Assembly (NCBI GenBank): GCA_016213265.1
Contig: JACRBA010000130.1
Coordinates: forward strand, 1 to 64,000
Source of the DNA: Burkholderiales bacterium
Lineage (GTDB): Bacteria > Pseudomonadota > Gammaproteobacteria > Burkholderiales > Burkholderiaceae_C
Length of the DNA stretch: 64,000 nucleotides
Reading direction: 5' to 3'
Under the pieces are notes generated by a model. That model was given only the letters and a program-made list of their open reading frames with translations, searched no databases and was not told the DNA's origin. Of this stretch, positions 2 to 64,000 are shown one piece after another (the stretch's first letter is position 1; the number at the start of each line of letters is the position of its first letter). A program made the position numbers and the translations under genes.

Positions 2-1654
<1,653 letters not shown>

Positions 1655-11938: not shown

Positions 11939-11963
11939 CGCGCCCGGCCACGGAACCCTGACC

Positions 11964-48327: not shown

Positions 48328-50205
48328 TCAAGTTCCGCACCCCTTCCACCAGCACGGCTGGCTGTCACGCCAGCGGCGCACGACCTGCCACTTGGGGGCC
48401 TGCGCGTCGCCGGGGTGCTCCTTCAGCCCCCAGGCGCCCCACTTCGAGGCAGCGGCCATGTGGTGGTACAGCACGATCAGCTCGCCGCCGCTGGCACGCC
48501 AGTCGGACAGGTACCGCTCATAGGCCACGCCCATGCGCGGGTCGCGGTTGGCGGCCTGGATGAGCCGCACCCAACGCGCTTCGTCCTCCCCGGCCGGCGG
48601 GGTGAGGTGCTGGCCGCCCTCGTAGGCCCAGAGCGGCAGGCCGGGGGGGGCCGCCAGCGCATGCGCCTGCTGCATCCAGCCGCGCGCCTGGGCGAGTGCG
48701 CCGCCCTCGCGCGGCGCGTCCGCCCGCCCCTGCAGGGGCGGGCGCACCGCCGCGCCCCGGCGGTCGGCGCCCAGGATCTCTTGGAACACATGGTCCACGC
48801 CGCCATCGGCATCGGCCAGCCAGGTGCGCGTGGTCTCCCGCAGCGCCGGGCTGGCGAGGTAGCCGCCGAAGTACGGCGCCACGGCCAGGGCGTCGACGTG
48901 GCGCGCACAGGGGCCACCCAGTTCGGCCGCCGCCAGCGGGCAGCCCAAGGTCTGCTTCAGCAGATCGGGATTCGCCGCCTGGCCGTTGAGCACGCACTTC
49001 ACCGGTGCCACCCCGGGGGCCCACGCCGACTTGACCAGCTGGCACAGGCGGGCCGCCCGCCAGGCCTGCCAGTTGACGCCCAGCGCCACGGGCTGCGCGC
49101 TGGCGCCAGGCCACTTCGCTCGGGCGGCCTGCTGCACCCAAGCGGCGATCGGGAACGCCTCGTTCCACGGCTCGTTGGCATGTTCGATGAGCGCCGTGCG
49201 TCCGGCCGGCAGCCGCTCGCGCAGCAACTGGCCGAGGCCACGTGCGTAGCCGTCATCGGCCCGCAGCGGCAGGTTCAGCCAGGGGTCGGCGCCCACGGCG
49301 GCGGCCAGGTCGAGCATGGCCTCCACCGGCACGCCGCCGGGGTGGTCCCACACGGCGGTGTCCAGGGGCGGGCGCGAGGCCCAGCTGGTCACGGGGCTGG
49401 CGTTGGTGTGGCCCCAACCCATGAAGCGCAGCACGCGCATGCCGCGCAGGTCCTGCAGGTACTGCGGGTGCCAGCGCCAATGCGCGGGGAACTTCTCGAA
49501 GGGCACGAAGGCGCCCGCGCGGCGCGCTACGCAGTCCGCGGGCGTGGCCGCGAAGCTGCCCAGGTCGCTGGCGCACGCGCCGCCCGGGGGGAAGACACGG
49601 ATGCGGCGCAGGGGCTGGGCCGGGTCGGTGGCCTGCAGCGAGATGCGCCAGCCGCCGTCCTCGGGCCGATTGCCCACCTCCACCACATCGCGGCCGGGCC
49701 GCGACTCGGCGGCCACCTTGCGGCCAGCCAGGTCGTGCACCAGCGTGCCACGGCCCTCGTAGGTGACGACATAGCGCCCCGCCGGATGCGCACCGCCGTT
49801 GCCGTTGAACAGCAGGACGGCCGCCGAGCGGAACTTCACGCCGCTGTCGTCGGCGGCGGGCAGGCGCAGGGGCCAGCCTTCCGCGTCCAGCGCGAGCTGG
49901 GCGCGCTCCCCGGTGTCCCAGGCGCTGGCGCCTGAGGCGAAGCCACTGCAGCCGCGGTCCCGGCTCGGTTCACATTGCGTGAGCCAGCCGGTGCTGCGCT
50001 TGAACTGGTCGACGAGGGGAAAGTCGGTGCTGTGGTATTCCCACGGCGCGAGGTTCAGGCCGATGCCGGCGCGCGGGGCGGGTGCGGTGGCGGCCTGCCC
50101 GGCCGCCTTCAGGCTGCCCGGAGCCAGGCACACGCAGGCCAGGGCCACAGCGGCCACCCGCTGCCACCCGGCCCGTGCACCGGCTCCCGCCCCCGATCGC
50201 GCCAC
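48328..50205 (-). CDS. Secreted glycoside-hydrolase-like protein, copy 2
   Basis: Paralog of the gene at 46285-48135 over its whole length: GIGLNLAPWEYHSTDFPLVD, VGADPWLNLPLRADDGYARG, LIEHANEPWNEAFPIAAWVQ (NEPWN retained), PLWAYEGGQHLTPPAGEDEA (YEGGQH retained), and the C-terminal CWWKGCGT matching CWWTGCTR. Start GTG 50205 gives a hydrophobic signal segment (VAAVALACVCLAPGSLKA), possibly with a Cys at the end. No catalytic residue seems lost relative to copy 1, so both may be active with different substrates. It is separated from copy 1 by 192 bases and from epsG by about 170 bases, where GCAATTGGTAAG occurs. Confidence 0.73.
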   Translation of the reverse strand: MARSGAGAGARAGWQRVAAVALACVCLAPGSLKAAGQAATAPAPRAGIGLNLAPWEYHSTDFPLVDQFKRSTGWLTQCEPSRDRGCSGFASGASAWDTGERAQLALDAEGWPLRLPAADDSGVKFRSAAVLLFNGNGGAHPAGRYVVTYEGRGTLVHDLAGRKVAAESRPGRDVVEVGNRPEDGGWRISLQATDPAQPLRRIRVFPPGGACASDLGSFAATPADCVARRAGAFVPFEKFPAHWRWHPQYLQDLRGMRVLRFMGWGHTNASPVTSWASRPPLDTAVWDHPGGVPVEAMLDLAAAVGADPWLNLPLRADDGYARGLGQLLRERLPAGRTALIEHANEPWNEAFPIAAWVQQAARAKWPGASAQPVALGVNWQAWRAARLCQLVKSAWAPGVAPVKCVLNGQAANPDLLKQTLGCPLAAAELGGPCARHVDALAVAPYFGGYLASPALRETTRTWLADADGGVDHVFQEILGADRRGAAVRPPLQGRADAPREGGALAQARGWMQQAHALAAPPGLPLWAYEGGQHLTPPAGEDEARWVRLIQAANRDPRMGVAYERYLSDWRASGGELIVLYHHMAAASKWGAWGLKEHPGDAQAPKWQVVRRWRDSQPCWWKGCGT

Positions 50206-50374: not shown

Positions 50375-51286
50375 TCAATACTCGTTCATCACCACGCCGG
50401 CCAAGCGCGTGTGACCCGCCTGCAGGGACACCACCAGGTCCTGCAGGCCGCTGACGCGGCTGGCATCGCGCCGCGCCACCACGAGTGCAGCGCCGCAGCG
50501 GGCGGCGATCACCACGCCATCCGTGCCGAAGACCGCGGCGGGGGTGTCGATGATCACGTGGTCGAACTTGGACGACAACTCGCGCAGCAGCAGGCCGAAG
50601 GCCGGCCCCTCGACCAGCTCCAGCGGGTTGGGCGGCTGCGGCCCCACCGGCATGACCCACAGGTTGGGCACGTCGGGCACCGCCTTGACGACGTTCTTGC
50701 CGCCGCGGCCGGCCAGCAGGTTGGACAGGCCGCGGGAGTTGTCCACGTCGAAAATCTGGTGCAGGCGGGCGCCGCGCATGTCAGCATCCACCACCAGCAC
50801 CCTCCCGCCGAGCTGCGCCAGGGCCACGGCCAGGTTGGCGCAGAAGTAGGTCTTGCCGTCCCCGCTGTCCAGGCTCACCACCGCCAGCGGGCGGCGCTGG
50901 CCACCCTCTTCCTCCTGGCTGCGCAGCAGGATCTGGCTGCGGATCGCCCGGAAGGCCTCGGCCTGGTGGCCGAAGGGCTGCACCAGCGCCACCAGCTCGG
51001 GGTTGGCCTGGCGGCGCTGCTCGTCGCCGTAGGCGTACTGGAACTGCTGCGACAGTGCGTAGAGCACGTCCTCGGCCGAGGCCAGGCCGAGCGCGATGGC
51101 GGCCTCGCCGAAACGCACGTTGTGCTCACGCTGGTAGCGGGCGATGTGCTCCACGTCCTCCGCGCTCAGGTTGCGCGCATCGCGGATCAACTCGCCGATC
51201 GCCCGCGACTTGACCTCGGCCGCCCCCAGCGGCGCATGGATGGAATCTGAGAAGTCGTGCTGGGTCGGGTCTGCGGAGTCGTTCAT
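50375..51286 (-). CDS. epsG: EpsG-type chain-length-associated ATPase (tyrosine-kinase-like)
   Basis: Cytoplasmic partner of the EpsF co-polymerase, related to Wzc/CapB kinases. A short N-terminal region (IGELIRDARNLSAEDVEHIA) is followed by the ATPase: Walker A VVSLDSGDGKTYFCANLAVA, Walker A' VLVVDADMRGARLHQIFD, Walker B HVIIDTPAAVFGTDG. The sequence ends RLAGVVMNEY with no Tyr-rich cluster, so classic tail autophosphorylation may be absent or limited to the last Tyr. Length 303 aa fits EpsG. It overlaps the epsF stop by 4 bases. Confidence 0.9.
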   Translation of the reverse strand: MNDSADPTQHDFSDSIHAPLGAAEVKSRAIGELIRDARNLSAEDVEHIARYQREHNVRFGEAAIALGLASAEDVLYALSQQFQYAYGDEQRRQANPELVALVQPFGHQAEAFRAIRSQILLRSQEEEGGQRRPLAVVSLDSGDGKTYFCANLAVALAQLGGRVLVVDADMRGARLHQIFDVDNSRGLSNLLAGRGGKNVVKAVPDVPNLWVMPVGPQPPNPLELVEGPAFGLLLRELSSKFDHVIIDTPAAVFGTDGVVIAARCGAALVVARRDASRVSGLQDLVVSLQAGHTRLAGVVMNEY

Positions 51287-52719
51287 TGGCTTCCCTTGCC
51301 CGGCGCGGGCAGGCGGCGGCCGGAGATCATGCGGTCCTGGGCCTGGGCCAGCTGCAGCCGCATGCGGCGGCCGATGGCCGGCGTGGGCATGATGCCGATG
51401 ACGGGCAGGCCGAGCGCGGCGACGGCGTCGGCCGGCACACGCACGCGCTTGTCGAACTGCTCGAGCGCCAGCGCGACGCCGCAGCCGAGCGCCAGGCCGA
51501 AGAACAGGCCGATCAGCAGGTTGGCGGCCACCTTGGGCGAAGAGGGCGCCGCCGGCGGCGTGGCCCGCGCCAGCATGGCGGCGTTGCTCTGCCGGTTCTG
51601 GCTTTCCAGGTTGCTCTGGTTGAAGCGGTTGAGCAGCAGGTCGTAGGAGCGCTGGGCGTTCTCCACGTCGCGCACCAGCACCGCACCCTGGTCACGCACC
51701 TCCTTCATGCGCAGCACCTTCTGGCGCTGCTCTTCGAGGCTGGCCCGTACCTGGCCTTCGCGGGCGCGGTCGATGCGGGCGCTGACGGAGACGCTGCCCG
51801 TCACCGTGCGCGTCTCGGCGGCGAGGCGGTTGCGCAGGTCACCCACCGTGGTGCGCGCCTCCACCACCTGCGGGTGGTTGGCGCCATAGCGCGAGTCGAG
51901 CTCCTTGAGCTTGGCCTCGGCGCGGGCCAGGTCGCCCTTGAGCGACGCGACGAGCGGGTTGTTGATGACCTCCGAGAGGTTGTCGCCATAGGCCGCCGCC
52001 TGCGCCTGCCGGCTCGACGATTCGCTGGACTGCGCCTGCATGGTCACCAACTGCTGACTCAGCATGTTCAGCCGGCTCATCTCGACGTCGAAGCGCTCGT
52101 CGGTCGCGATGATGCCCTGCTGCTGCTGGAACTTGGACAGGCGCTGCTGGGCCGATTCGAGCGCGACGCGCGCCTCGTCCACCTGGGTGGCGAAGAAGCC
52201 GCTGTACTCGCGCGCCGGGTCCACCCGCAGCTCCACCGCGGTCTCCAGATAGGCCTGCACGAAGGCATTGGCCAGCGTGGCCGCGAACTGCGGCTCGGTG
52301 CCCTTGTACGCGACGTTCACCACGTTGCTGCCGGCACGAGCCACCTGCACGTCGAGGTTCTTCAGCAGGAACTCGACGAGCCAATCCTCGATGGTGCCCT
52401 CGCCCCGATTGACCTTGTCCCACAGCTTGCGGATCTCGGCCACCTCGGTGAGCTTGAGGTTGCGCACCACACGCAGCGCGACCCGGTCGCTGCGCAGCAC
52501 CTCCACCTGGGTGTTCATGAGGGCCGGCGACGCCGCACCGCCATAGAGCATGGACGCCACGGGGTCGGGCTTGATGTCGATGACCAGCGTGGCCGAGGCC
52601 GTGTACATCTTGGGCGCGAGCAAGGTGTAGCCCACCGCCGCGCCCAGCACGAGCGCGAAGGTGAGCACGGCCGGCACCCATCGGGCGCGCAGCACGGCCA
52701 GGAAGTTGGACAGGTTCAT
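51283..52719 (-). CDS. epsF: EpsF-type chain length determinant (polysaccharide co-polymerase, Wzz family)
   Basis: Inner-membrane protein with two end membrane segments: WVPAVLTFALVLGAAVGYTL (N-terminus) and VAANLLIGLFFGLALGCGVA (near residue 410). Between them is a long periplasmic helical region (FFATQVDEARVALESAQQRL, LKGDLARAEAKLKELDSRYG, RSYDLLLNRFNQSNLESQNR). The PxxP region before the second segment (TPPAAPSSPKVA) is the Wzz/PCP signature. It controls chain length and works with EpsG. The ATG overlaps the epsE stop by one base (TGATG), so epsE-F-G are translationally linked. Confidence 0.93.
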   Translation of the reverse strand: MNLSNFLAVLRARWVPAVLTFALVLGAAVGYTLLAPKMYTASATLVIDIKPDPVASMLYGGAASPALMNTQVEVLRSDRVALRVVRNLKLTEVAEIRKLWDKVNRGEGTIEDWLVEFLLKNLDVQVARAGSNVVNVAYKGTEPQFAATLANAFVQAYLETAVELRVDPAREYSGFFATQVDEARVALESAQQRLSKFQQQQGIIATDERFDVEMSRLNMLSQQLVTMQAQSSESSSRQAQAAAYGDNLSEVINNPLVASLKGDLARAEAKLKELDSRYGANHPQVVEARTTVGDLRNRLAAETRTVTGSVSVSARIDRAREGQVRASLEEQRQKVLRMKEVRDQGAVLVRDVENAQRSYDLLLNRFNQSNLESQNRQSNAAMLARATPPAAPSSPKVAANLLIGLFFGLALGCGVALALEQFDKRVRVPADAVAALGLPVIGIMPTPAIGRRMRLQLAQAQDRMISGRRLPAPGKGSQ

Positions 52720-53555
52720 CAGAACAGGCTCTCGCGCACGAACACCACATCGCCCGGCAGCAGCGTGTCGTCCAGCGACAGCTCCAGCTGCTGCACCTGC
52801 CCATTGGCGGCACGGCGGCTCACGCGCAGCCCGCGCTGCGTGCCGCGCTGGGTCAGCCCGCCTGCGGTGGCCAGCGCCTGCATCACCGTCATGCCGCGCT
52901 CCAGCCGCAGCTGCCCGGGGCGCTGCACCTCGCCGTACAGGTACACCACGGGATACCGGTCGACCCAGATCGCGTCGCCGGGCTGGATCTCGATGTCGTC
53001 ACCGCGGCCACCGGGCGCGAACATGCGCGGCAGGTCCACCTCCTTGCGGAAGGGCTGGCCATTGCGCTGCCCGGTGACCACCACCGTGTCGGCTCCGGCC
53101 GTGGTGGTGACGCCGCCAGCGAGCGCCAGCACGTCGGTCAGGCGCATGCCCGCCACGTCCAGCGGCACACGGCCGGGCTTGCCCACCTGCCCCAGCACGT
53201 TCACCTGGTTGGCGCGCACCTGGGTCACCATCACCGTGACCTGCGGGTTCTTGATGAAGTCGCCCTTTCTCAGGGCGTCGGCCAGCGCCGCCTCGGCCTG
53301 GCTCACGGTGAGGCCGCCCAGCCGGATGGAGCCAATCAGCGGGTAGCTGATCAGGCCCGATTCAGAGACCCGCGTCTCGAGGGACAGGTCGGGGCTCTGG
53401 TAGACGGCGATGCGCACCGTGTCGCCGGGGCCGATGCGGTACAGCGCCGCTTCGCCGGCCGCCGGAGCGGCCGCGGGCTGCGCATGGGCGCAAGGCAGGG
53501 CCAGGGTGGCGATGGCCACGAGGCTGGCGCAAAGGGGTCGAAGCAGTCGGTTCAT
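52719..53555 (-). CDS. epsE: EpsE-type polysaccharide export protein (Wza family)
   Basis: Signal peptide from ATG 53555 (PLCASLVAIATLALPCAHAQ). Then the Poly_export domain: YRIGPGDTVRIAVYQSPDLS, GLISYPLIGSIRLGGLTVSQ, NPQVTVMVTQVRANQVNVLG, followed by two SLBB-type domains (LTDVLALAGGVTTTAGADTV, GEVQRPGQLRLERGMTVMQA with LATAGGLTQRG). It ends ELSLDDTLLPGDVVFVRESL. 278 aa matches EpsE rather than full-length Wza, whose C-terminal helix is absent, so the outer-membrane pore may be made with EpsL. Located 168 bases downstream of the first sulfotransferase gene. Confidence 0.93.
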   Translation of the reverse strand: MNRLLRPLCASLVAIATLALPCAHAQPAAAPAAGEAALYRIGPGDTVRIAVYQSPDLSLETRVSESGLISYPLIGSIRLGGLTVSQAEAALADALRKGDFIKNPQVTVMVTQVRANQVNVLGQVGKPGRVPLDVAGMRLTDVLALAGGVTTTAGADTVVVTGQRNGQPFRKEVDLPRMFAPGGRGDDIEIQPGDAIWVDRYPVVYLYGEVQRPGQLRLERGMTVMQALATAGGLTQRGTQRGLRVSRRAANGQVQQLELSLDDTLLPGDVVFVRESLF

Positions 53556-53723: not shown

Positions 53724-54569
53724 TCAGACGGCCGGGCGCTTGTAGCCGAAGCGGTCGATGATGAACTTCTCGCGCCGGGCGACGAGGTCCACGCTGGCCG
53801 CGTCGTAGTAGTGGTTGAAGGGATGCGGCCGGTTCGACTTGTTCGTCGGCTTGGCATCGTAGATCTTCTTGCGCTGCTCGTCGGTGAGCTCCACGCCGCA
53901 GCTGTCCAGCGCCTTGACGAGGTCATCGGCCAGGCAGTCCTGGCGGATGATGTGCTGCACGATGAGGTTGTCCTTTTCGAACGCCTTCAGGCCCTCCTGG
54001 GTGCTCACCGTCGCAGGGATCTTGTCCGCGCCCCGCACGAAGAGGTTGAAGTAGCGGAAGGTCATCAGGCCGCCGATCTTGCCGATGGGCGACTGGGCGA
54101 AGCCCGCTTCCACCACCCGGCGCGTCTGCGGCGAGCAGACGACGCGCAGCCACTCCCGGAAGGCCTCGGCATTGGCCGGGTCGGTGTAGTAGAAATCCTT
54201 CGCGCGCTCGGCGCCCACGTTGGCGGGCAGCATGGACTTCTGCTTCTTCTCCTCGACGCCGTCCTTCTCGGTGGCGGCGTTGCGGGCGGCGTTGATCTTC
54301 GCGAGCACGCGCTCCCAGCGCTTCGGGTTGGTCAGGCGCTGGAAGAGCTCGCCCTGCTGCTGGCAGCCGTAGGTCCACAGCGACAGGTACCAGCCCCACG
54401 GGTCGCGGATCGATCCCATGAACTGCTTTCCACTGGACAGCAGCTCCTCGGTGGGCACGTTGTGCTTGCCATCGTTCTTGCCGCCGAGCAGATCCCTCAG
54501 CGTCTTCTTGATGTGGGTGGAGCCGGTCTTCTGCAGTTCAACGAAGACGACCTTGTCGGTGATGAGCAT
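53724..54569 (-). CDS. Sulfotransferase-family protein, type A copy 1
   Basis: Predicted cytoplasmic PAPS-dependent sulfotransferase. 5'-phosphosulfate-binding-loop-like motif KVVFVELQKTGSTHIKKTLR at the N-terminus and a 3'-phosphate-binding-type motif FMGSIRDPWGWYLSLWTYGC (about residue 50) fit the carbohydrate sulfotransferase pattern (KTGST; RDPxxxxxS). The C-terminus has HYYDAASVDLVARREKFIID followed by RFGY, the YDD..V...Y...FGY ending seen in several sulfotransferase-like genes here. 281 aa. It is in line with and upstream of epsE. The nearest relative in the window is the degenerate gene at 56764. Confidence 0.82.
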   Translation of the reverse strand: MLITDKVVFVELQKTGSTHIKKTLRDLLGGKNDGKHNVPTEELLSSGKQFMGSIRDPWGWYLSLWTYGCQQQGELFQRLTNPKRWERVLAKINAARNAATEKDGVEEKKQKSMLPANVGAERAKDFYYTDPANAEAFREWLRVVCSPQTRRVVEAGFAQSPIGKIGGLMTFRYFNLFVRGADKIPATVSTQEGLKAFEKDNLIVQHIIRQDCLADDLVKALDSCGVELTDEQRKKIYDAKPTNKSNRPHPFNHYYDAASVDLVARREKFIIDRFGYKRPAV

Positions 54570-54906
54570 GTGCGAAACCTCGCGGGTGGTTGGGGGGGCG
54601 CATGGGCACCGCCGTCACATCGATTGATGATTGATGAGAATGCGGTCGAGAGGCCCCGAGGGCCCGCGCCATGGCGCCGCGGATCATAGACGAGGGACTT
54701 CCCGAATGGGCCCCGTCCCCCACATCAGCGACACCGTCTGCCCCAGACGATTGCACGTGTGCATCCCCAATGGCACAGGCCTTGCAAACAGGGTGCTGTG
54801 CTAGTATCAATTTGCATTCGGCATGCACTCGCGCAGTGCACGCGGACATGCCTTCTGGGCCCTGTGACAGGGATGCCGTCCCCCCCAACCTGCCAGCTTT
54901 CGAACC
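54570..54906. promoter_or_regulatory. Divergent intergenic region with extended -10 promoter candidate
   Basis: 337 bases between divergent starts. Notably AT-richer than its surroundings near 54780-54830. TGCTAGTAT at 54799-54807 is an extended -10 (TGnTAGTAT) for the plus-strand hydrolase-like gene, with about 100 bases of leader; a TTGCAA lies only 14 bases upstream of it, too close for a standard -35. For the minus-strand gene no clear promoter was seen. No gene or other element was recognised here. Confidence 0.4.
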
Positions 54907-55911
54907 ATGTTTGAACTCGTACCCGACCAGGGCTCCGACATCCCGTTCTTCCCCGACAGCAACGCCGAGATCACCCGCGAGGCGGCCGAGACGGTGGAGC
55001 TCAACGGCGACTGGAGCATCCCCGAGAAGGCACTCACCGTGATGCGGGTGAAGACGGGCCACTTCACCGTCAACATCTCGATCAACACGGTGCGCAAGGC
55101 CGACAAGCTCGTGGTCACCTTCCAGGGTGCACGCGGCGGCGGCAAGGACAGCGCCAATGCCAGCCGGCCGATGTTCTCGCGCCGCAACTGGGAGGCCCTG
55201 TTCGAGGCCCCCATCCTGGCCATCTCCGATCCGATGTCGGAGATCGACTGGAACTCCAACGTGCCGCGCTGCGGGTTCTACATGGGCACGCTCGACAACG
55301 ATCTCGTGCCTGAGTTGAACGCGCTCATCGACGTCGTCTGCGCCAAGCTGGGCGTGCCCGTCGAGAACGTGCTGATGTACGGCTCGTCCGCCGGCGGCAC
55401 CTCGGCCATCCTGGTGGGCAGCCGCCGCAAGTCCCGCACGGGCATCGTGGCCGTGTGCCCGTTCCTGCGTCCCGACAAGTACCGCGAAGGTGTCATCGCT
55501 GCCGGCATGCGCGCCATGGGCAAGACCATGGACGACTACGAGCAGATGATGCAGGACACGCCCTGGCGCTTCAACCCGCTCATCGCACTGAAGGACGCCC
55601 ACCAGGCCGGCCAGGACATCCGCGTGTTCGTGGGCCAGAACCTGAAGGACAAGTCCACCATCAGCCGCCACTTCCCCGGCATCTGGCGCCGCTGGGACAT
55701 CGACCCCGAAGGCGGCGTGTCGCCCGACGGCCGTGTGATGACCGCCATGTACGACTCGGCCGAAGCCGGCCATGGCCATGAGCCGCCCGAGTACTCGCGC
55801 CCGCTGTGGCAGGAAGCCCTGAAGTTCTTCGCCACGCCGGCCGTGGTGCGCACCAAGAAGGCGGGCGGCAAGAAGAAGGAAAAGGCCGAGATGGCCGACG
55901 ACGCCGAGTGA
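54907..55911 (+). CDS. Alpha/beta-hydrolase-like protein of unknown specificity
   Basis: Not recognised as a named family. The nucleophile-elbow pattern VENVLMYGSSAGGTSAILVG (about residue 155) suggests an alpha/beta-hydrolase fold with a Ser nucleophile in GSSAGG. An Asp/His partner pair may be in QDIRVFVGQN and AEAGHGHEPPEY, the latter with a plausible catalytic His. No signal peptide, so cytoplasmic. The last ~20 residues are Lys-rich (KKAGGKKKEKAEMADDAE). Its place among the sulfotransferases, followed by a terminator, suggests a role in modifying the polymer, for example O-acyl transfer or removal. Acetyltransferases of the Asp2 type share this fold, a possible but unproven parallel. Confidence 0.7.
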   Translation: MFELVPDQGSDIPFFPDSNAEITREAAETVELNGDWSIPEKALTVMRVKTGHFTVNISINTVRKADKLVVTFQGARGGGKDSANASRPMFSRRNWEALFEAPILAISDPMSEIDWNSNVPRCGFYMGTLDNDLVPELNALIDVVCAKLGVPVENVLMYGSSAGGTSAILVGSRRKSRTGIVAVCPFLRPDKYREGVIAAGMRAMGKTMDDYEQMMQDTPWRFNPLIALKDAHQAGQDIRVFVGQNLKDKSTISRHFPGIWRRWDIDPEGGVSPDGRVMTAMYDSAEAGHGHEPPEYSRPLWQEALKFFATPAVVRTKKAGGKKKEKAEMADDAE

Positions 55912-55942
55912 TCGGCACAGCCGGCCTGCCGGCTGGCGCTGG

Positions 55943-55977
55943 AAAGGGGCACGCCTGCGAAGGACGTGCCCCTTTTT
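55943..55977 (+). terminator. Rho-independent terminator after the hydrolase-like gene
   Basis: Stem GGGGCACG (55946-55953) with CGTGCCCC (55965-55972), extended by AAA/TTT, followed by TTTTTC. It lies about 30 bases after the stop of the plus-strand gene and just before the convergent sulfotransferase stop, so it may serve both directions. Confidence 0.9.
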
Positions 55978-55980
55978 CAT

Positions 55981-56670
55981 TCACCCTTCGAATCGGTAGC
56001 CGAAGCGTTCGATGATGGGGGCGTACGCCTTCGCCACCCAAGCGCGGCTGTCGTCGTCGTAGTAGGTGCTGTAGTGGCGCCGCTCGCCCTGCTCTGCCCG
56101 CTCGCTCGTCACGTTCTCCGCCACGATGGGCACGGGTTGCGCCACGCCCAACCGCTGCAGCACCTCGTCGAAGCCATGCTGCAGCGCCTCGAAACGGATG
56201 ATGTGGTCGGCATGGTCCAGGTACTCCAGCGGCCCCTTGACCGTGCTGCCCTTGTCGCGATGCCGCTGCAGCTCGCGTCCCACCCACTCAGGAAATCCCA
56301 TCGATTGCGCCGCGCCCATGCTCGCGTGGATGCGGGCGTTGTCCTGGGCCCAGCGGTAGCGCGCCGGGTCGGCGGTGAATCGCCCCTTGCGCTTGAGGTA
56401 GCGGCTGACGAGCAGGTCGTACGGATTGCGCACGCAGGTGAACTTGAACAGGCCGTCGAGCTCGGCGCGCGTCATCAGCCCGTGCTCCTGCAGGTCGCGC
56501 CAGGTGGCGTGATGCTTCTTGACGAGGATCTCGCCGTCGTCGGCACGGATCTCGCGTTGAGGCATGGGCTGCCCGTCCAGGGCTTCCAGCAAGGTGCGCG
56601 CGATCGCCTTGCTCGCCGTCTGCGGGTTGGCGAAGAAGATGTAGCGATAGCGCGTCGAAAACACGGCCAT
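55981..56670 (-). CDS. Sulfotransferase family 2-type protein, type B copy 1
   Basis: PAPS-binding loop YIFFANPQTASKAIARTLLE at the N-terminus and 3'-phosphate-type motif FTCVRNPYDLLVSRYLKRKG near residue 75 identify a carbohydrate-type (Sulfotransfer_2-like) sulfotransferase. The C-terminus has YYDDDSRAWVAKAYAPIIER followed by FGYRFEG, a typical ending of this group. 229 aa. Paralog of the gene at 57889. Start ATG 56670 is divergent from the degenerate type A gene, 93 bases away. The substrate is presumably a hydroxyl of a polysaccharide residue; position cannot be told. Confidence 0.88.
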   Translation of the reverse strand: MAVFSTRYRYIFFANPQTASKAIARTLLEALDGQPMPQREIRADDGEILVKKHHATWRDLQEHGLMTRAELDGLFKFTCVRNPYDLLVSRYLKRKGRFTADPARYRWAQDNARIHASMGAAQSMGFPEWVGRELQRHRDKGSTVKGPLEYLDHADHIIRFEALQHGFDEVLQRLGVAQPVPIVAENVTSERAEQGERRHYSTYYDDDSRAWVAKAYAPIIERFGYRFEG

Positions 56671-56763
56671 GTGCCCCCCAGCTTGTGTCGTGGCTTAGCA
56701 CCGTCCGTCATGGGCGGCCTCCTATACTAGTTTTGCCCGCCCCACTTCCCAAGGCCCTGCCCC

Positions 56764-57873
56764 ATGTTCACGTCCGACTCCCTGCTGCTTGTCGAACTCC
56801 ACCGCGGCGGCAGCGCCCGCGTGAAGAAGCTCCTGCAGGAGCTCGTGGGCGGGCAGACGGACAAGGGCAGCCTGTACGCGGATGCACTGGCCGAGGCGGG
56901 CAAGCCGGTGCTGGGCCTGGTGAGCCATCCGCTCGCCTGGTACCTGGCCCTGTGGCGCAACGGCTGTGCGGGCAAGGGTGATCTGCACAAGCGATTGACG
57001 AGCGACGTGCGTTGGGGCCAGCTGCGTGCGCGCCTGAAGAACCGCGAGCCCAAGCCCGGGCAGACCGACCTCAAGCAGCTTCCCGAGGGATGGGGCCCCG
57101 AGCGGGCGCGCGACAGCTGGTACGCGGATTCGAACGATGCGCAGGCGTTCCGCGAGTGGCTGCAGGCCGTGCTGGCCGAACGCGGGATGCGCAAGCTGGT
57201 CGACCACGGCTGGGGCAGCTCGCCCATCGCCAAGTTCGCTGGCCTGATGACCTACCAGTACTTCAACCACTTCGTGCGTGGCGCCGAGAACATGGACAAG
57301 TCCGTCGACTCCATGGAGGCGCTGCAGGCCATGCACGAGGCGCATGCGCTTCCGACCCATTTCGTGCGCATGGAGTCGCTCGCCGACGACCTGCAAGCCG
57401 CGCTCGACGCGATTGGCGTACCGCTGTCTCCCGACCAGCGCGCCCGCGTGGCAGCGGTGAAATCGGGGGCGCCTGGGGAGCAAGAAGCGATCGACCGCTT
57501 CTATGACGCCGAAACCCGGCGCTTGGTGGCGCGCCGCGAAGCCTTCCTGTACGAGCGCTTTGGCTACGAGCCGCCCTCTGGCGGCGGACAGGGCAAGAAA
57601 GCCAAGCGGCAGGAGCCGACGGAAGGGGCCGCCGAGGCGCAGAGCCGAACCGGCACCGATGACACCACCGCCGTCGAACCGGCTGCCGCGGAGCCGGCGC
57701 CCACGCCAGCGCCGGCCAAATCGGCCGCGAAGCCTCGCAAGGGCAACAAGGCGTCGGCGCAAGCCGGGGCCGAGCCGACACCCGCGGCCGACAAGGCCGC
57801 CACGGCGCGCAAGACCACGCGCCGCCGCGCGGCCACGGACACCGCCAAGTCCGCGGTGGACAGCGACGCCTGA
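56764..57873 (+). CDS. Degenerate sulfotransferase-like protein (type A copy 2) with histone-H1-like C-terminal tail
   Basis: Clear paralog of the gene at 53724: LLLVELHRGGSARVKKLLQE aligns with FVELQKTGSTHIKKTLR, and LGLVSHPLAWYLALWRNGCA with GSIRDPWGWYLSLWTYGC; GPERARDSWYADSNDAQAFR and AKFAGLMTYQYFNHFVRGAE also match. The PAPS-contacting residues KTGST are replaced by RGGSA and RDP by SHP, so catalysis by the known mechanism is doubtful. After the YDAETRRLVARREAFLYERF ending, ~95 extra residues form a Lys/Ala/Pro-rich, AlgP- or H1-like basic tail (AKSAAKPRKGNKAS, TARKTTRRRAATDTAKSAV). The frame is intact. TATACT at 56723 is a -10 candidate. It might bind the sulfated polyanion or a partner enzyme. 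Confidence 0.75.
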   Translation: MFTSDSLLLVELHRGGSARVKKLLQELVGGQTDKGSLYADALAEAGKPVLGLVSHPLAWYLALWRNGCAGKGDLHKRLTSDVRWGQLRARLKNREPKPGQTDLKQLPEGWGPERARDSWYADSNDAQAFREWLQAVLAERGMRKLVDHGWGSSPIAKFAGLMTYQYFNHFVRGAENMDKSVDSMEALQAMHEAHALPTHFVRMESLADDLQAALDAIGVPLSPDQRARVAAVKSGAPGEQEAIDRFYDAETRRLVARREAFLYERFGYEPPSGGGQGKKAKRQEPTEGAAEAQSRTGTDDTTAVEPAAAEPAPTPAPAKSAAKPRKGNKASAQAGAEPTPAADKAATARKTTRRRAATDTAKSAVDSDA

Positions 57874-57888
57874 GGCGACCGCGGGCGC

Positions 57889-58581
57889 TCAGCCCGCGAA
57901 CCGGTAGCCGAAGCGCTCCAGGATGGGCGCGTACAGGCGTTCGACGACCGCCACGCTGGCGTCGTCGTAGTACTCGGTGTAGTTCTTCTTTTTCTTCTTC
58001 ACGACCGGCGCAGCCGCCTCCGCCGGGTCGGCGCGGCCACGGGTGATGTTGTGCACGATGATGGGCACGGGCTGCTCGATGCCGATGCGCCGCATGAACT
58101 CGTCGAAGCCGTCCTGCAAGGCCTCGAAGCGGATCACGTGGTCGGCGTGCGCCAGGAACTCCAGCGGCCCGTTGCGCAGCTTGTCGATCTCTTCGTAGCG
58201 CCGCCCCAGCCAGCGCAGCCACTGCGGGAAGCTGTGCTCGCCGGCGGGCGGCTCGCCCACCAGCCACGGAAACTTCGCCGGGTCACCGCCGAAGCGTTCA
58301 CAGTACTTGATGTACTTGCTCACGAGCTGGTCGAAAGGGTTGCGCACGCAGGTCACCTTGAACAGCGACTCGAGCTGCGCCTCGGTGAGCAGCCCCGCGG
58401 CCACGATCTGGCTGTAGGTGGTGTGGTGCAGGCGCGCCACCGTCTGGCCATTGCGCGTGATCTCGCGGTCCGGCAAGGCCACGCCGCCCAGGCGCTCGCG
58501 CAGGGTGAGCGCAATGGCCTTGCTGGCCGTCTGGGGGTTGGCGAAGAAGATGAACTGATGCTGTTCGGAATAGACGGCCAT
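57889..58581 (-). CDS. Sulfotransferase family 2-type protein, type B copy 2
   Basis: PAPS-binding loop FIFFANPQTASKAIALTLRE and 3'-phosphate-type motif VTCVRNPFDQLVSKYIKYCE match the type B gene at 55981; HVIRFEALQDGFDEFMRRIG and YYDDASVAVVERLYAPILER followed by FGYRFAG match it too. 230 aa. Unlike copy 1 it has a run of five Lys (PVVKKKKKNYTEYYDD) before the C-terminal motif. Convergent with the degenerate type A gene, 15 bases apart. Predicted cytoplasmic carbohydrate sulfotransferase. Confidence 0.88.
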   Translation of the reverse strand: MAVYSEQHQFIFFANPQTASKAIALTLRERLGGVALPDREITRNGQTVARLHHTTYSQIVAAGLLTEAQLESLFKVTCVRNPFDQLVSKYIKYCERFGGDPAKFPWLVGEPPAGEHSFPQWLRWLGRRYEEIDKLRNGPLEFLAHADHVIRFEALQDGFDEFMRRIGIEQPVPIIVHNITRGRADPAEAAAPVVKKKKKNYTEYYDDASVAVVERLYAPILERFGYRFAG

Positions 58582-58605
58582 GCGGTGTCCTTGGCGGCGC
58601 GCCGG

Positions 58606-59535
58606 TCAACCCAGAACGCCCGGCTTGCTCCACTGGGGCAGCCAGGCGGCACAGGCGCTCTGCACGCGGTCGATCTCCTCCGGCGTCATCACCTTGTGCG
58701 CGTCGGATGCGCGCCGCTGGATGGCATGGGCCTTCTGCGACGTGCCGTCTTCCTTGGTGCCACTGGCCTCGGCCGCCACCATCTGCGGCACGAACTCCAT
58801 GCCGGCGTAGTCGCAGATCGCACGGATGGACGCCTGCGGATCGTCGATGAGCCAGTCGTAGGGGGCCATGTACATCGAGCTGCCGTGGCGCGGAATGGCG
58901 GCGTTGACCATGCGCGTGAAGCGGTCGAACACGCCAATCATGTCGTCCACGCTCTTGTCCAGCCAGGCCGTCTTCTCAGGCGGCTCACCGTCCTGCCGCG
59001 CCTTGGCCAGGCGTTTGCGGTACGAGGCGACCACGTCCACGGGGTCGCGGCTGCACACCAGGATGCGCGCCTGCGGGAAGATCTCGAAGATGAGGTCGAT
59101 CTTGCGCAGGTGGCCGGGCGTCTTCTCGAGCGGGTGCCGCCCGGGGTACACGCGCGTGCCGGCGAAATGGAAGAACGCGCGGATCGCATCGGCCTCCGAC
59201 AGCGGCCCGTGCTGCTGCTCGTGCGAAGCCACCGTCTCGCGCAACGCCATGAGCTGCGGCCGGCCCTTCAGATAGGCGCGCGTGGGAAAGTGCACCGGGT
59301 CTTCGTAGGGCTGGCGCGGCCGCAGGAAGATGAAGGTTTCGCGGCAGTTGGCGATGTCGAACATCGTCGGGTGCTGCGCGAAGGCCACCTGCAGCATGGA
59401 CGTGCCCGAGCGGGCCAGGCCCACGATGAACAGCGGACGGCTGCGCAGGCACCAGGCCCGCACTTCGTCCAGGTCCAGAGGGGCCGGCGGAGGCTCGGCA
59501 TGGGGACGCCGGAGACGGTCGAGGACGCTGCGCAT
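58606..59535 (-). CDS. Sulfotransferase (Sulfotransfer_3-like)
   Basis: 5'-phosphosulfate loop RPLFIVGLARSGTSMLQVAF near residue 33 and 3'-phosphate motif ARILVCSRDPVDVVASYRKR near residue 150; both are standard for PAPS sulfotransferases of the aryl/carbohydrate type. The HPLEKTPGHLRKIDLIFEIF segment (EKTP) is also family-typical. 309 aa from ATG 59535 (MRSVLDRLRRP); the track's longer ORF adds a non-coding-like upstream part. It lies 24 bases upstream of the type B gene in the same orientation, so these two are likely co-transcribed. Substrate unknown. Confidence 0.9.
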   Translation of the reverse strand: MRSVLDRLRRPHAEPPPAPLDLDEVRAWCLRSRPLFIVGLARSGTSMLQVAFAQHPTMFDIANCRETFIFLRPRQPYEDPVHFPTRAYLKGRPQLMALRETVASHEQQHGPLSEADAIRAFFHFAGTRVYPGRHPLEKTPGHLRKIDLIFEIFPQARILVCSRDPVDVVASYRKRLAKARQDGEPPEKTAWLDKSVDDMIGVFDRFTRMVNAAIPRHGSSMYMAPYDWLIDDPQASIRAICDYAGMEFVPQMVAAEASGTKEDGTSQKAHAIQRRASDAHKVMTPEEIDRVQSACAAWLPQWSKPGVLG

Positions 59536-59641
59536 GGTGTGCCCGATTCTAGGAAGCGGCCTGCCCGCCGTGGCGCCCCGCCCGCGCCGGATCGCGCCGT
59601 GAGAGGCTTCGAACTGGGGGCATGGCCAAGCCTTCAGGCGG

Positions 59642-60334
59642 TCATGCCTGGAAGCGCGGATAGCCGAAGGCCTCGAAGTCGTCGCGGTAGGCCTCGTACA
59701 GCGCCTGCTCCACTTCGGGCTCGTCACGCAGCAACTGCAGCAGCGCCTCGTCGTCGGCAGCGCTCTTGTTCCGCTTCGGTGCAGCTTGCGCCTCTTCGGT
59801 GCGCTTCACCAGCCCGGGGATGGCCGCCTGGATCTGCGCGAGATCGTCGTCCAGCGACTCGAGGTGCGCGACGCGGTTGACCAGCGGCTTGCCCTGCTCG
59901 TCGCACAGCCATTGCGTCTGCGACCACAGCAGGCGGTGGTACTGCTTGCGCTTGAGCTTGGGCGACAACGCGAAGGTCTTGAAGTCGGGCATCTTCTCGA
60001 TGAACTTCAGGCGGTCCATCTCCTTGTTGCCGCGCCAACGCTTCATGAAATGGAAGGTGCTCTGGGCGCGGGCATAGGGATTGCGCACGACGCCGAACGA
60101 GTAATAGCTGCTCCACAGGTCGGCGCCGACGATGGCGCGAATCTCGCTCGCCGTGGCGTGCTTGGTGAGCCCGAAGCGACGCTTGAACTCGTTCTGCAGC
60201 GCCTCGCCCAGCGCGGTGCCGCCGACCTCGAGATCACGGTAGGTGCTGTACTGGCTGAAGAGCTCGGTGACCGACGTGCCCGCGGACTTGGGCACATGAA
60301 CGAAGATGAATTTATGGGTATGGTTGACGATCAC
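59642..60334 (-). CDS. Sulfotransferase family 2-type protein
   Basis: N-terminus IVNHTHKFIFVHVPKSAGTS with the PAPS loop PKSAGTS, and 3'-phosphate motif SFGVVRNPYARAQSTFHFMK near residue 85; this HVPKSAGTS...VRNPY pairing is the hallmark of Sulfotransfer_2 carbohydrate enzymes. GTG 60334 (MIVNHTHKF) is preferred to the track ATG at 60406, as family proteins begin just there and GGAG lies about 10 bases upstream. 230 aa. The C-terminus ends YEAYRDDFEAFGYPRFQA. Divergent from the gene at 60409, 74 bases apart. Confidence 0.9.
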   Translation of the reverse strand: MIVNHTHKFIFVHVPKSAGTSVTELFSQYSTYRDLEVGGTALGEALQNEFKRRFGLTKHATASEIRAIVGADLWSSYYSFGVVRNPYARAQSTFHFMKRWRGNKEMDRLKFIEKMPDFKTFALSPKLKRKQYHRLLWSQTQWLCDEQGKPLVNRVAHLESLDDDLAQIQAAIPGLVKRTEEAQAAPKRNKSAADDEALLQLLRDEPEVEQALYEAYRDDFEAFGYPRFQA

Positions 60335-60408
60335 GACACTGGGCTCCAATGTGCAGTCACTGATAATAACGACAGCTCGGCGACGGCTGGCGCACGAAAG
60401 AAACATCG

Positions 60409-61119
60409 ATGATCATTTCACTGAACAGACGCTACGTTTTCGTTCACATCCACAAGTGCGCGGGCACGAGCATCGAGGTCGCGCTCGCGAAAGCGCTGCG
60501 GCATAACGACATCGTTCTGGGGTCCACGAAGAGCGGCGAGAAGTACCAGGACTTCTTCAAGCGCACGATCGGCCTGAACAAGCACAGCACGGCCCTCGAG
60601 GCGCGCCAGTTCCTTGGCGATGCGCTGTACGACAAGTTCTTCAAGTTCGCCTTCGTGCGCCATCCGATCGATCGGCTCCATTCGCTGTACTCCTACGCGC
60701 TCAAGCTGGCGCACGATGCGCCGCTGACCGACGAAGAGCAACGCACGTTCGATGCCCACGGCCAGTGGCCCGACCGCCCGCCCTTCCGCTACAAGGCGGT
60801 GGCGGCCGCGCTGGAATGCAACTCCTTCAGCGACTTCGCGCTGCATCCGCTCACGTGGGCGGATGCCGGCGCACAGCCGCAGTGGAAGAGCCTGTGCGAC
60901 GCGAACGGCCAGCTCATCGTCGACTTCATCGGCAAGGTCGAATCGATCGAGCAGGACTTCGCCCGCATCTGCGAGAAGCTCGAGGTGAGCGTGCCGCTGG
61001 AAGTGCGCAACTCGAGCCATGACAAGAAGTCGGCGCTGGCGCTGTCTCCGCTGGCGCGCAACACGGTGTGCGAGCGATTCGCGCGGGACTTCGAGCTGCT
61101 CGGCTACACGCCCGATTGA
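60409..61119 (+). CDS. Sulfotransferase family 2-type protein
   Basis: PAPS loop YVFVHIHKCAGTSIEVALAK at the N-terminus (HKCAGTS, a variant of PKTAGTS) and 3'-phosphate motif FAFVRHPIDRLHSLYSYALK near residue 80. VIGLNKHSTALEARQFLGD-like and FIGKVESIEQDFARICEKL segments (the latter read here as DFIGKVESIEQDFARICEKL) are also usual in this family. 236 aa, C-terminus CERFARDFELLGYTPD. It is divergent from the gene at 59642 and convergent with that at 61163, where a 22-base palindrome lies between the stops. Confidence 0.9.
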   Translation: MIISLNRRYVFVHIHKCAGTSIEVALAKALRHNDIVLGSTKSGEKYQDFFKRTIGLNKHSTALEARQFLGDALYDKFFKFAFVRHPIDRLHSLYSYALKLAHDAPLTDEEQRTFDAHGQWPDRPPFRYKAVAAALECNSFSDFALHPLTWADAGAQPQWKSLCDANGQLIVDFIGKVESIEQDFARICEKLEVSVPLEVRNSSHDKKSALALSPLARNTVCERFARDFELLGYTPD

Positions 61120-61130
61120 TCCCCTGGGGC

Positions 61131-61152
61131 CTGGCCGCCCGCGGGCGGCCAG
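61131..61152. repeat. 22-base perfect palindrome between convergent sulfotransferase genes
   Basis: CTGGCCGCCCGCGGGCGGCC followed by AG is a perfect palindrome, extended by CCCCTGG/CCAGGGG-like flanks. It has no T-run. It may end transcription from either side imperfectly or stabilise mRNA 3' ends. Confidence 0.55.
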
Positions 61153-61162
61153 GGGCGGCGCA

Positions 61163-61900
61163 TCACCAGTCGGCGCCGGCTTCGTAGCCGAGCTTCTGCA
61201 GCGCGTCAGGGAAGCGTTCCTTGAACGCGGCCTTCAGTTCGGGCGTGAAGGTGCGCACCCACTGGCGGCCTTCGCCCGAGCGGATGTGGTCGGCCGGGTC
61301 CGAACCGGCCGCGCCGCCGAACAGCGACAGCTCGCGCACGAACTTCAACGCCATCTCCAGCCGCGGCCCTTCAAAGCCGAGGAACTGCATCATGGGCGTG
61401 AAGATCTTCAGGTCGCGGTCGATGATGAGGTCCTCGTACTTCGCCTCGAAGCAGATGTCCTTCATGGCGTAGTCCCACGCCGCCATCTCACGGATGGTCT
61501 TGCCGCCCGTGTGGTCCATCTCGAAGACGAGCTTCTCGTGGTCGGTGGGCAGGGCGCTGATGGCCTGGCGGTAGCTCTTGCCGCCGTATTCCTTCTTGGG
61601 ATTGTTGGCCCACTTCTCGACCGTCTTCACATGGTAGAAGGCGCCGGAAATGATGACGTCCCGCGGATCGCGGATGACGTGCACGGCGCGCACGCCACGC
61701 TTGGGAAAGCGCGCCTTGAGTGCCTTGAGGTCGACCTTGCTGTGGTCCTGCAGGAAGATGTCAGCCTCCTGCGGCAGCTCCGCCTGCGACTTGGTGTGCA
61801 GGTTCAGCTTCTCGTGGCGCTTGATGGCGCGGAAGATGTTGGCCATCCAGACCGAGCCGGTCTTGTGGTGCGTGCAGACAACGATGAGCGGTGGTTTCAT
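61163..61900 (-). CDS. Sulfotransferase (Sulfotransfer_1-like)
   Basis: PAPS loop LIVVCTHHKTGSVWMANIFR (HKTGSxW) at the N-terminus and 3'-phosphate motif RAVHVIRDPRDVIISGAFYH near residue 75; RDPRDVIISG is the classic cytosolic-type sulfotransferase sequence. TGGKTIREMAAWDYAM and CFEAKYEDLIIDRDLKIFTP (the KYEDL motif) follow in family order, and SGEGRQWVRTFTPELKAAFK resembles the typical C-terminal region (G.W...F...). 245 aa. A different subfamily from the type A and B proteins. It follows the gene at 61994 by 93 bases in the same orientation. Confidence 0.92.
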   Translation of the reverse strand: MKPPLIVVCTHHKTGSVWMANIFRAIKRHEKLNLHTKSQAELPQEADIFLQDHSKVDLKALKARFPKRGVRAVHVIRDPRDVIISGAFYHVKTVEKWANNPKKEYGGKSYRQAISALPTDHEKLVFEMDHTGGKTIREMAAWDYAMKDICFEAKYEDLIIDRDLKIFTPMMQFLGFEGPRLEMALKFVRELSLFGGAAGSDPADHIRSGEGRQWVRTFTPELKAAFKERFPDALQKLGYEAGADW

Positions 61901-61993
61901 GGTGGACTCGGCGCAGCCGATGCGCCTTCAGCAGGCAGTAAAGCAAGAAGCGGGCGACAGCGACCGAACGCCGTCGCCGCGCGGACGACCCGG

Positions 61994-62803
61994 TCAGATC
62001 ACGGCCGTCTCGAGGTCGCGGATTTCGTCGTAGTTGGTGATCACCGCCGACAGGGGCTCGTCGATCACCTTCTTCAGCGCCGGCTGGCGCTCGAACTGGT
62101 TGTCGACACCGAGGAACTCGGCGACGCGTGCGCAGATCTCCGGGCGGAAGTCGCCCTCGTCGTCGAACACCGATTCGTAGTCGATCGCCAGGCGCTGTGC
62201 ATCGTCGAATGCCTGGTCGACGGTGTCCGCCGCGCGCTTGCGCTTCTTCATCGACGACAGCACCGCGTTGCGGTCCACGGCCACGGGACGCTTCTCCGGC
62301 AGGGCCGCCTCTCCGCTGGCCGGCTGGTGGTAGCGGCCCGTCTGCACGGCGACGAGGTTGGACACGACCGAGTAGAAGTGCTGGCGGCGCAGGTGGATCA
62401 CCTTCAGCCGGCTGCGCTTGATCAGGCGAAGCATCGGCGGGTTGGTGAAGGGCAGCTGCCAGGCGTCGGAGATGAGGTTCAGGTGCTCGTACTTGATGTC
62501 GATGAGCGCGATGCCGTCGGCATCCTTGGGCACGAGGCTGGCCACGTACTGCAGGAACAGCTTGCCGTGGTGCTCGGGGAACACCAGGTCGGGGTTGGCC
62601 GCGATGCGCTCGCGGAAATACTTGAAGAAGCCCTGCGGGTTGTTCGAATTGAACACCTCACCGCGGTCGCGCACCCGCGGGTGCGAGGCGAGCATGCGGC
62701 GGAACACGGTGGTGCCCGAGCGCACGCCGCCCATGAAGAACACGATGCGGCCCAGCATGTCCTCGCCGATGGGGTCGTTGGCCGGGCGGTTGTTCTGCTT
62801 CAT
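61994..62803 (-). CDS. Sulfotransferase (NodH/Stf0-like)
   Basis: IVFFMGGVRSGTTVFRRMLA is a PAPS loop (RSGTT) and KVIHLRRQHFYSVVSNLVAV (near residue 135) corresponds to the 3'-phosphate segment in the form HLRRxxxxxxxxS found in NodH/LpsS/Stf0-type enzymes. HPRVRDRGEVFNSNNPQGFF matches their second conserved block (GE.F.). The C-terminal IDYESVFDDEGDFRPEICAR resembles the YE.L region. 269 aa from ATG 62803. NodH-type enzymes sulfate sugar 6-hydroxyls of glycolipids or LPS, which makes a glycan substrate likely here. Confidence 0.87.
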   Translation of the reverse strand: MKQNNRPANDPIGEDMLGRIVFFMGGVRSGTTVFRRMLASHPRVRDRGEVFNSNNPQGFFKYFRERIAANPDLVFPEHHGKLFLQYVASLVPKDADGIALIDIKYEHLNLISDAWQLPFTNPPMLRLIKRSRLKVIHLRRQHFYSVVSNLVAVQTGRYHQPASGEAALPEKRPVAVDRNAVLSSMKKRKRAADTVDQAFDDAQRLAIDYESVFDDEGDFRPEICARVAEFLGVDNQFERQPALKKVIDEPLSAVITNYDEIRDLETAVI

Positions 62804-62878: not shown

Positions 62879-64000
62879 CTACCGGAGGACATTGTTCATC
62901 GAGATGGCCTTCCAGACGTGGTTCCAGCCCGCATCGCTGCCGTAGCGTGATGCGTCGTCCCGGGGTGCCTGGCTGGCCCAGCCGGGCAGGTGCCGGCCCA
63001 GGGTGGTGACGAGCTCGGTCAGCGCCCACAACCCCGGAGCGGGCGGCGGCACGACCGGCACGTGCGCCCGGCGGAACGTCTCGCGCACCACCTCGAGCGC
63101 AGGCGCGTCGCCGGACAGGTCGAGCAGCGCCAGCGGCAGCGGACGCAGGTGCCGGAAGCGGGTGAGCAGCTGGCCGGCGACATGCACCCGCGGCGGCCCG
63201 GGCCGTGACGTCGCCGCGGGCGGGGCGCCGCTTGCGCCGCCGTCCGGCACCACGACCCACGACGCCGGCCATTCGGGATGGGCGCCATCGAGCGCCTCGG
63301 CCATCAGCTCGGCGAGCTCGCGTTGGTCGCTGCGGGCGAGCAGCCAGACACGGCGCGGGCCCGGTTCGGCATTCAGCAGCCAGGGCCGCCAGCGCCAGAA
63401 CGGCACCGTCAGGCGCACGGCCTGCGGTGCGGCAGGCACCGGGGCGGCCAGGGGGTGGCTGTCCAGCAGCGTCACCTGGTGGAACTGGCGCGTGAGCCGC
63501 TCGACATCGGCGGCCAGCACCTCCGGCTGCAGCATGCGCAGGGTGTCCACGCGCACGAACAAGGGCAGCCGCGAGGGCTGCGAGCCCAGCTCGAGCATCT
63601 CGGGGCTCAGCCGGGTGACCCACAGCGTCAACCGGCCATACGCGGCCAGCACGTCCTTGAGCGGCGCGCGCACGGCCGACAGGCCGAGCGACCGTGTGGC
63701 GGCGCGCTCGGCGGGGTGCGAGACCACCAGCTTGCAGTCGCTGGCCATGCCATGGAAGGCCTCGAACAAGGCATTCTGGTTGGCCGGAAGCGCCTGATCG
63801 AAATGCAGCACCACCTGGGCCAGGTGGCGCATCAGGTTGACGGTCTGGAAGATGTGCTCGCGGTAGGGCGAATCCAGCTCGAAGAACTGGCGGTCCACCG
63901 TGACGACGACCGTCGGCTGGTCGACCAGCCGACGCAGGGTGTCGTCGAACGCAGCCTTGGCCTGCGCCCGCACGCGCGCGTAGGTGTGCTCGGTGCTTTC
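62879..64000 (-). CDS. Unrecognised protein, 5' end beyond the window
   Basis: The frame is open to base 64000 (nine codons upstream of the track's GTG), so the start lies outside. The visible ~373 residues show no sulfotransferase motif. Rossmann-like strands and GT-B-like spacing appear (TVVVTVDRQFFELDSPYREH, LARSDQRELAELMAEALDGA, WVVVPDGGASG, HVPVVPPPAPGLWALTELVT), so a glycosyltransferase-type C-terminal domain is possible, but I do not recognise it. It ends GWNHVWKAISMNNVLR. It is 75 bases upstream of the NodH-like sulfotransferase in the same orientation and may head that operon. Confidence 0.65.
   Translation of the reverse strand, partial: ESTEHTYARVRAQAKAAFDDTLRRLVDQPTVVVTVDRQFFELDSPYREHIFQTVNLMRHLAQVVLHFDQALPANQNALFEAFHGMASDCKLVVSHPAERAATRSLGLSAVRAPLKDVLAAYGRLTLWVTRLSPEMLELGSQPSRLPLFVRVDTLRMLQPEVLAADVERLTRQFHQVTLLDSHPLAAPVPAAPQAVRLTVPFWRWRPWLLNAEPGPRRVWLLARSDQRELAELMAEALDGAHPEWPASWVVVPDGGASGAPPAATSRPGPPRVHVAGQLLTRFRHLRPLPLALLDLSGDAPALEVVRETFRRAHVPVVPPPAPGLWALTELVTTLGRHLPGWASQAPRDDASRYGSDAGWNHVWKAISMNNVLR

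Follow-up and report, generated by a model that had tools for sequence, protein, structure and literature searches.

At least a dozen sulfotransferase genes lie inside one probable capsule gene cluster of an Ideonella-group bacterium

Introduction

Sulfated capsules have been described mainly in marine bacteria and cyanobacteria. In the marine gammaproteobacterium Cobetia marina KMM 1449, the capsule has been proven by NMR to be sulfated, and a single genomic region holds kpsETMD, kpsSC, a fused cysN/cysC, cysD, cysQ, glycosyltransferase genes and sulfotransferase (ST) genes (PMC11766843), a content like that of the contig described below. Similarly, Vibrio sp. KMM 8419 has an NMR-proven sulfated capsule encoded in a 95 kb locus, which resembles ours in its kpsDMET/kpsS exporter, extra cysNDC genes, STs and a predicted AB-hydrolase, as well as in the O-antigen genes with a Wzx that adjoin the capsule locus (PMC11641403). 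The synechan xss cluster of Synechocystis is likewise a polysaccharide cluster whose STs belong to separate subfamilies (PMC8205485). Our literature searches for sulfated polysaccharides of Ideonella or Burkholderiales returned nothing relevant.

Here, we analysed a 64,000-base window comprising bases 1–64000 of a 95,570-base contig (C74) from a draft assembly of 4.6 Mb (completeness 89.9%). The source bacterium belongs to the Ideonella group, with I. paludis, I. oryzae, I. benzenivorans, Ideonella sp. MAG2 and a metagenome-assembled genome recorded as Vitreoscilla sp. as genus-mates. Its closest relative, G410, was used for ortholog and dN/dS comparison, and four other ST-bearing Ideonella genomes were compared (I. 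paludis, MAG2, I. benzenivorans and G403). Genome-wide statements are based on family searches.

Results

Positions 53724–62803 of the window contain nine genes of ST families, with one alpha/beta-hydrolase gene in between. The nine reading frames have third-position GC of 0.87–0.94, a typical coding composition, and their orthologs in the close relative are intact, with dN/dS of 0.15–0.46. Profile searches placed seven of the nine above Pfam cut-offs for Sulfotransfer_2 (genes at 55981, 57889, 59642 and 60409), Sulfotransfer_3 (58606 and 61994) or Sulfotransfer_1 (61163), while NCBIfam offered no name for any of the nine. A first-pass annotation of this DNA had listed nine sulfotransferase-fold genes, which holds by profile for these seven and, less firmly, by its motifs and a weak fold match, for ST1, but not securely for ST3, which has no Pfam match and has lost the motifs. 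The same annotation credited eight genes with both PAPS-binding motifs; we find both canonical motifs in six (ST1 and ST5–ST9), the P-loop lysine being replaced in ST2 and ST4 and both motifs being lost in ST3. Its estimate of at least five subfamilies agrees with the six groups seen here (ST1 with ST3, ST2 with ST4, ST6 with ST7, and ST5, ST8 and ST9 each alone). In line with the annotation's own view, a paralog search rules out nine copies of one amplified gene.

The gene nearest the exopolysaccharide (EPS) genes, ST1 (53724–54569, minus strand), encodes a divergent sulfotransferase with the motifs QKTGSTH and RDPWGWYLS, whose weak PF03567 match (13.9 of 22 bits) lies below the cut-off. These motifs, as [QH]KTGSTH and R[DN]PW, are kept in six Ideonella homologs across the genus, and close variants occur in homologs from Pelagibacteraceae, Saprospiraceae and Actinomycetota. 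The AlphaFold model of ST1 is confident (pLDDT 88.7), and its best matches in the PDB are nearly all sulfotransferases, at E about 0.1 and TM about 0.4, so that the predicted fold is suggestive of a sulfotransferase rather than strong evidence for one; a sequence search of solved structures with the ST1 family profile returned nothing. Genes of the ST1 family are also found near ABC exporter genes in Pelagibacteraceae and Actinomycetota contigs (L037 and L039), the L039 region carrying two ST1-like genes.

The ST1 paralog ST3 (56764–57873, plus strand; 39% to ST1, no Pfam match) ends in an Ala/Lys-rich tail that is disordered in the predicted model, and its fold search gave mixed matches, weaker than those of ST1. 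It is without a P-loop and without the 3'-PB arginine (SHPLAWY), both motifs being lost in the two species examined, and its frame is open in both, with a dN/dS of 0.46. ST3 is thus a probable pseudo-sulfotransferase paralog of ST1. A different departure from the canonical motifs is seen in the Sulfotransfer_2 proteins ST2 (55981–56670, minus strand; 34 bits) and ST4 (57889–58581, minus strand; 27.6 bits), which are paralogs at 48%: motif alignment shows glutamine in place of the P-loop lysine in both, and every ortholog in the genus has Gln or, in two relatives, Leu at this position.

The remaining STs are ST5 (58606–59535, minus strand; Sulfotransfer_3, 95 bits, weakly matching an ST domain of known structure), ST6 (59642–60334, minus strand; Sulfotransfer_2, 68.6 bits, PKSAGTS and VRNPY), ST7 (60409–61119, plus strand; Sulfotransfer_2, 68.8 bits, HKCAGTS and VRHPI), ST8 (61163–61900, minus strand; Sulfotransfer_1, 40 bits, HHKTGS and IRDPRD) and ST9 (61994–62803, minus strand; Sulfotransfer_3, 37.6 bits, RSGTT and LRRQH). 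Searching solved structures by sequence with ST6 yielded no ST relative. The interspersed gene HYD (54907–55911, plus strand) encodes an alpha/beta-hydrolase-like protein, not an ST, with a GSSAGG motif and a weak match to XcbB/CpsF capsule proteins; its orthologs adjoin STs in three other genomes.

The island had been described as running from epsE to the window end. Those coordinates hold, but the tenth gene in the span is the hydrolase, and the island does not stop at the window's edge, as at least three further STs lie beyond it. A glycosyltransferase gene (PF13692; 3' part at 62879–64000, minus strand, complete at 62879–65206 on the contig) is followed by further glycosyltransferases and by three Pfam-positive STs at contig positions 71446, 72633 and 77937, the one at 72633 joining a Sulfotransfer_2 domain to an N-terminus that appears hydrolase-like by eye. 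More glycosyltransferase genes come next, and then OPX, a KpsE-type PCP, KpsT and KpsM at contig 86757–91111, an ABC exporter gene set with KpsE family and KpsM scores (298 and 176 bits) below the NCBIfam cut-offs. From kpsM (91111) down to ST8 (61163), every gene call is on the minus strand. At least a dozen ST genes are located inside this one probable capsule gene cluster.

This contig makes up 2% of the assembly yet carries ten of the genome's 13 Pfam-positive STs, a clustering that is not due to chance; the other three, of Sulfotransfer_3/1 type, are elsewhere in the genome. That such a set is unusual among relatives, as first proposed, is confirmed by the presence of a Sulfotransfer_2 gene in just 15 of 401 family genomes, none of which, outside the source genus, has more than two. 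In a class-wide sample, 92 of 369 genomes have at least one Sulfotransfer_2 gene, and the maximum of six is reached by the source genome and one other.

Not all of these genes need be active. Several could be decaying or non-catalytic, leaving few active sulfation positions on either candidate substrate, a reading suggested by the loss of both motifs in ST3, the absent P-loop lysine in ST2 and ST4, and ST10 (contig 71446–72351; L001:11446–12351), in which the RSGTT of the G410 ortholog reads RSGVG, and which evolves at a dN/dS of 0.55 and has possibly lost function. ST3, ST10 and ST11 are indeed faster-evolving (dN/dS 0.46–0.55); however, no frame is broken in either species, most other genes have a dN/dS of 0.15–0.33, and the ST2/ST4 substitution is genus-wide, unlike decay, leading us to regard widespread inactivation as possible but doubtful. 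We consider speculative, and assign a still smaller chance to, a densely and multiply sulfated, glycosaminoglycan-like capsule made by at least ten regiospecific STs, with a catalytic ST1 paired to a pseudo-ST3 and with ST2 and ST4 active without the P-loop lysine. The likeness to glycosaminoglycan modification drawn by the first-pass annotation is treated here as an analogy.

At the left end of the window, a kpsS-like gene for a Kdo transferase (1525–2907, minus strand; Capsule_synth, PF05159, 271 bits; NCBIfam KpsS, 350 bits, below the equivalog cut-off) and a kpsC-like gene (3056–5101, minus strand; PF05159, 272 bits over four Capsule_synth stretches) lie beside cysQ (5132–5920, minus strand; TIGR01331 above cut-off, PF00459), encoding a 3'(2'),5'-bisphosphate nucleotidase for PAP removal. 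Next are cysD (6064–7929, plus strand; PRK12563/TIGR02039 above cut-off at residues 320–621) and a PAPS-producing cysN-cysC fusion (8042–9943, plus strand; NF004035, 1075 bits), which is the sole APS kinase match in the genome (a single PF01583). With these genes on the left and kpsMT on the right, each end of the contig holds one half of an ABC-exporter capsule system, which brings its own supply of PAPS. The other PAPS_reduct-family gene of the genome, a CysH gene on contig C169, adjoins a sulfite/nitrite-reductase-like gene and encodes CC...CxxC cysteines, which we take to be typical of APS reductase; judged from these residues, cysteine synthesis in this genome probably does not depend on PAPS.

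The cysD gene carries ~320 in-frame residues ahead of CysD, the start of which is IS630-transposase-like, with HTH domains (IS630 model, 44 bits at residues 3–128), and an internal ATG precedes CysD; each of the six aligned Ideonella genomes keeps this arrangement. The PAPS genes are followed by a DUF1800 and DUF1501 pair (10103–13496), whose orthologs in I. paludis, G401 and G260 are close to PAPS or capsule genes, and then two long GT61-domain proteins are encoded in tandem (13902–16580 and 16628–19507; ~40% identical).

Across the genus, kpsC lies at most about 7 kb from cysNC in 13 of 13 genomes where both were found. This linkage extends to G182 and G405, genus members without a Sulfotransfer_2 match, and the PAPS genes are for this reason no proof of sulfation by these STs. 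The presence of cysC alone was dismissed as island-specific evidence of sulfation, as the gene occurs in 15 of the 16 genomes of the genus.

Between the capsule halves, the contig contains a Wzx/Wzy EPS locus with a WcaJ-type priming glycosyltransferase (26592–27986, minus strand; PF02397/PF13727), a Wzy polymerase (40812–42344, minus strand; PF04932), a Wzx flippase (42536–43921, plus strand; PF13440) and epsG, epsF and epsE (50375–53519, minus strand; TIGR03017 EpsF above cut-off; TIGR03029 EpsG, 249 bits, below cut-off; Poly_export/SLBB). Two paralogs with 46% identity and no Pfam match are also encoded here (46285–48075 and 48328–50148). In this lineage, the locus is probably a separate polymer system.

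The gap from epsE to ST1 is about 200 bases, and the first-pass annotation had favoured this EPS locus as the partner of the STs. They would then act in the manner of synechan, a precedent for a sulfated Wzx/Wzy polymer (PMC8205485), placing sulfate on repeat units before flipping. In G410, ST1 and HYD likewise adjoin eps genes, on a different contig from the one on which the order ST2–ST11, glycosyltransferases, ST13, OPX and KpsM is kept, so part of the ST set could serve the EPS. Adjacency to the Wzx/Wzy cluster is confined, however, to the source genome and G410. The I. paludis and MAG2 orthologs of ST10, HYD, ST1, ST6, ST2/ST4, ST7 and ST5 are part of a kpsMT-PCP-OPX-glycosyltransferase locus or directly follow it, and neither the Wzx nor the Wzy of the window has a homolog in the 80 kb examined. 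A stretch of about 50 kb in both I. benzenivorans and G403 takes in kpsMT, STs (ST1 among them) and, after these, cysNC-cysD-cysQ-kpsC-kpsS; the STs thus fill part of the roughly 40 kb that separates the capsule halves. No homolog of the window's Wzy was found anywhere in these four genomes, a search that an unrelated Wzy could escape. The location of STs in the capsule locus of four other Ideonella, together with the lack of this Wzy there, leads us to assign them to the ABC-exported capsule. In the source contig, the STs themselves run into the KpsM/T/E/OPX genes, and the PAPS genes adjoin kpsSC rather than EPS genes; modification of the EPS therefore appears improbable.

A shared modification pool, in which the STs serve several acceptors (capsule, EPS, LPS, glycolipid), would fit the six subfamilies, the presence of two polysaccharide loci on the same contig and the three Sulfotransfer_3/1 genes elsewhere in the genome, but most subfamilies are consistently co-located with one exporter locus in relatives, making such a pool very unlikely.

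Additional genes accompany the STs in some relatives. Between the HYD and ST1 orthologs, I. paludis (L017:18019–19471; G077:C11:120019–121471) and MAG2 (L013:18352–19804; G408:C1:355352–356804) both encode an ACP-like protein (82 aa) and a ketosynthase-like protein (404 aa), names given from N-terminal sequence by eye, as no profile match was obtained. Another genus member, G402 (C765, L050), has orthologs of ST5, ST7 and ST2 interspersed with additional ST-like genes that bear KTGT motifs, adjoining a ManC gene.

Discussion

We consider it likely that the island supplies the sulfation genes of an ABC-exporter (KpsMT) capsule locus, probably Kdo-linked, spanning ~90 kb of the contig. The distance of about 80 kb between kpsSC/cysNC and kpsMT, with the EPS locus in between, speaks against this assignment, as do the absence of canonical PAPS residues in ST2, ST4 and ST3 and the scores of KpsS and KpsM below equivalog cut-offs. 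A dedicated multi-enzyme module for a sulfated polysaccharide, as originally proposed, is nevertheless well supported by the STs, cysD/cysNC, cysQ and the polymer genes taken together.

In the proposed pathway, with functions assigned by family, CysD and CysNC would supply PAPS and CysQ would remove the by-product PAP. Glycosyltransferases encoded between kpsM and the island would build the chain, and STs of at least six subfamilies would sulfate it at various positions or on various residues while it is still in the cytoplasm, ahead of export, ST3 being a probable non-catalytic partner of ST1. HYD and the hydrolase-ST fusion might act in acyl-group editing or in some other modification of the capsule, a tentative assignment. 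The chain would leave through KpsMT/KpsE/OPX, attached by a Kdo linker from KpsS and KpsC to a lipid anchor. The source bacterium thus probably has a sulfated sugar coat; we infer the sulfation, its positions and its acceptor, and the activities and acceptors of the individual STs are likewise predictions.

A culturable betaproteobacterial genus with many diverse polysaccharide STs and linked PAPS genes would offer enzymes with which to make sulfated glycans, and the Ideonella set could serve as a test bed for how many STs a polymer requires. The shift of the probable substrate from EPS to capsule also alters the first choice of mutant.

Compared with described systems, the source contig has the exporter set, kpsS/kpsC and the PAPS genes cysD, cysN/C and cysQ of a Cobetia- or Vibrio-type locus, here in an Ideonella-type betaproteobacterium rather than a marine gammaproteobacterium. 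Few STs are described in Cobetia marina KMM 1449, whereas the source contig carries ten or more Pfam-positive STs, with a Wzx/Wzy locus set between its capsule halves (PMC11766843); Vibrio sp. KMM 8419 has three ST genes and is without kpsC (PMC11641403); and synechan is made by a Wzx/Wzy system with two STs, in contrast to an island that goes with an ABC exporter in relatives (PMC8205485). The type of locus is thus already known from marine bacteria, and what is unusual here is the number and diversity of its STs, the probable pseudo-sulfotransferase and the P-loop variant.
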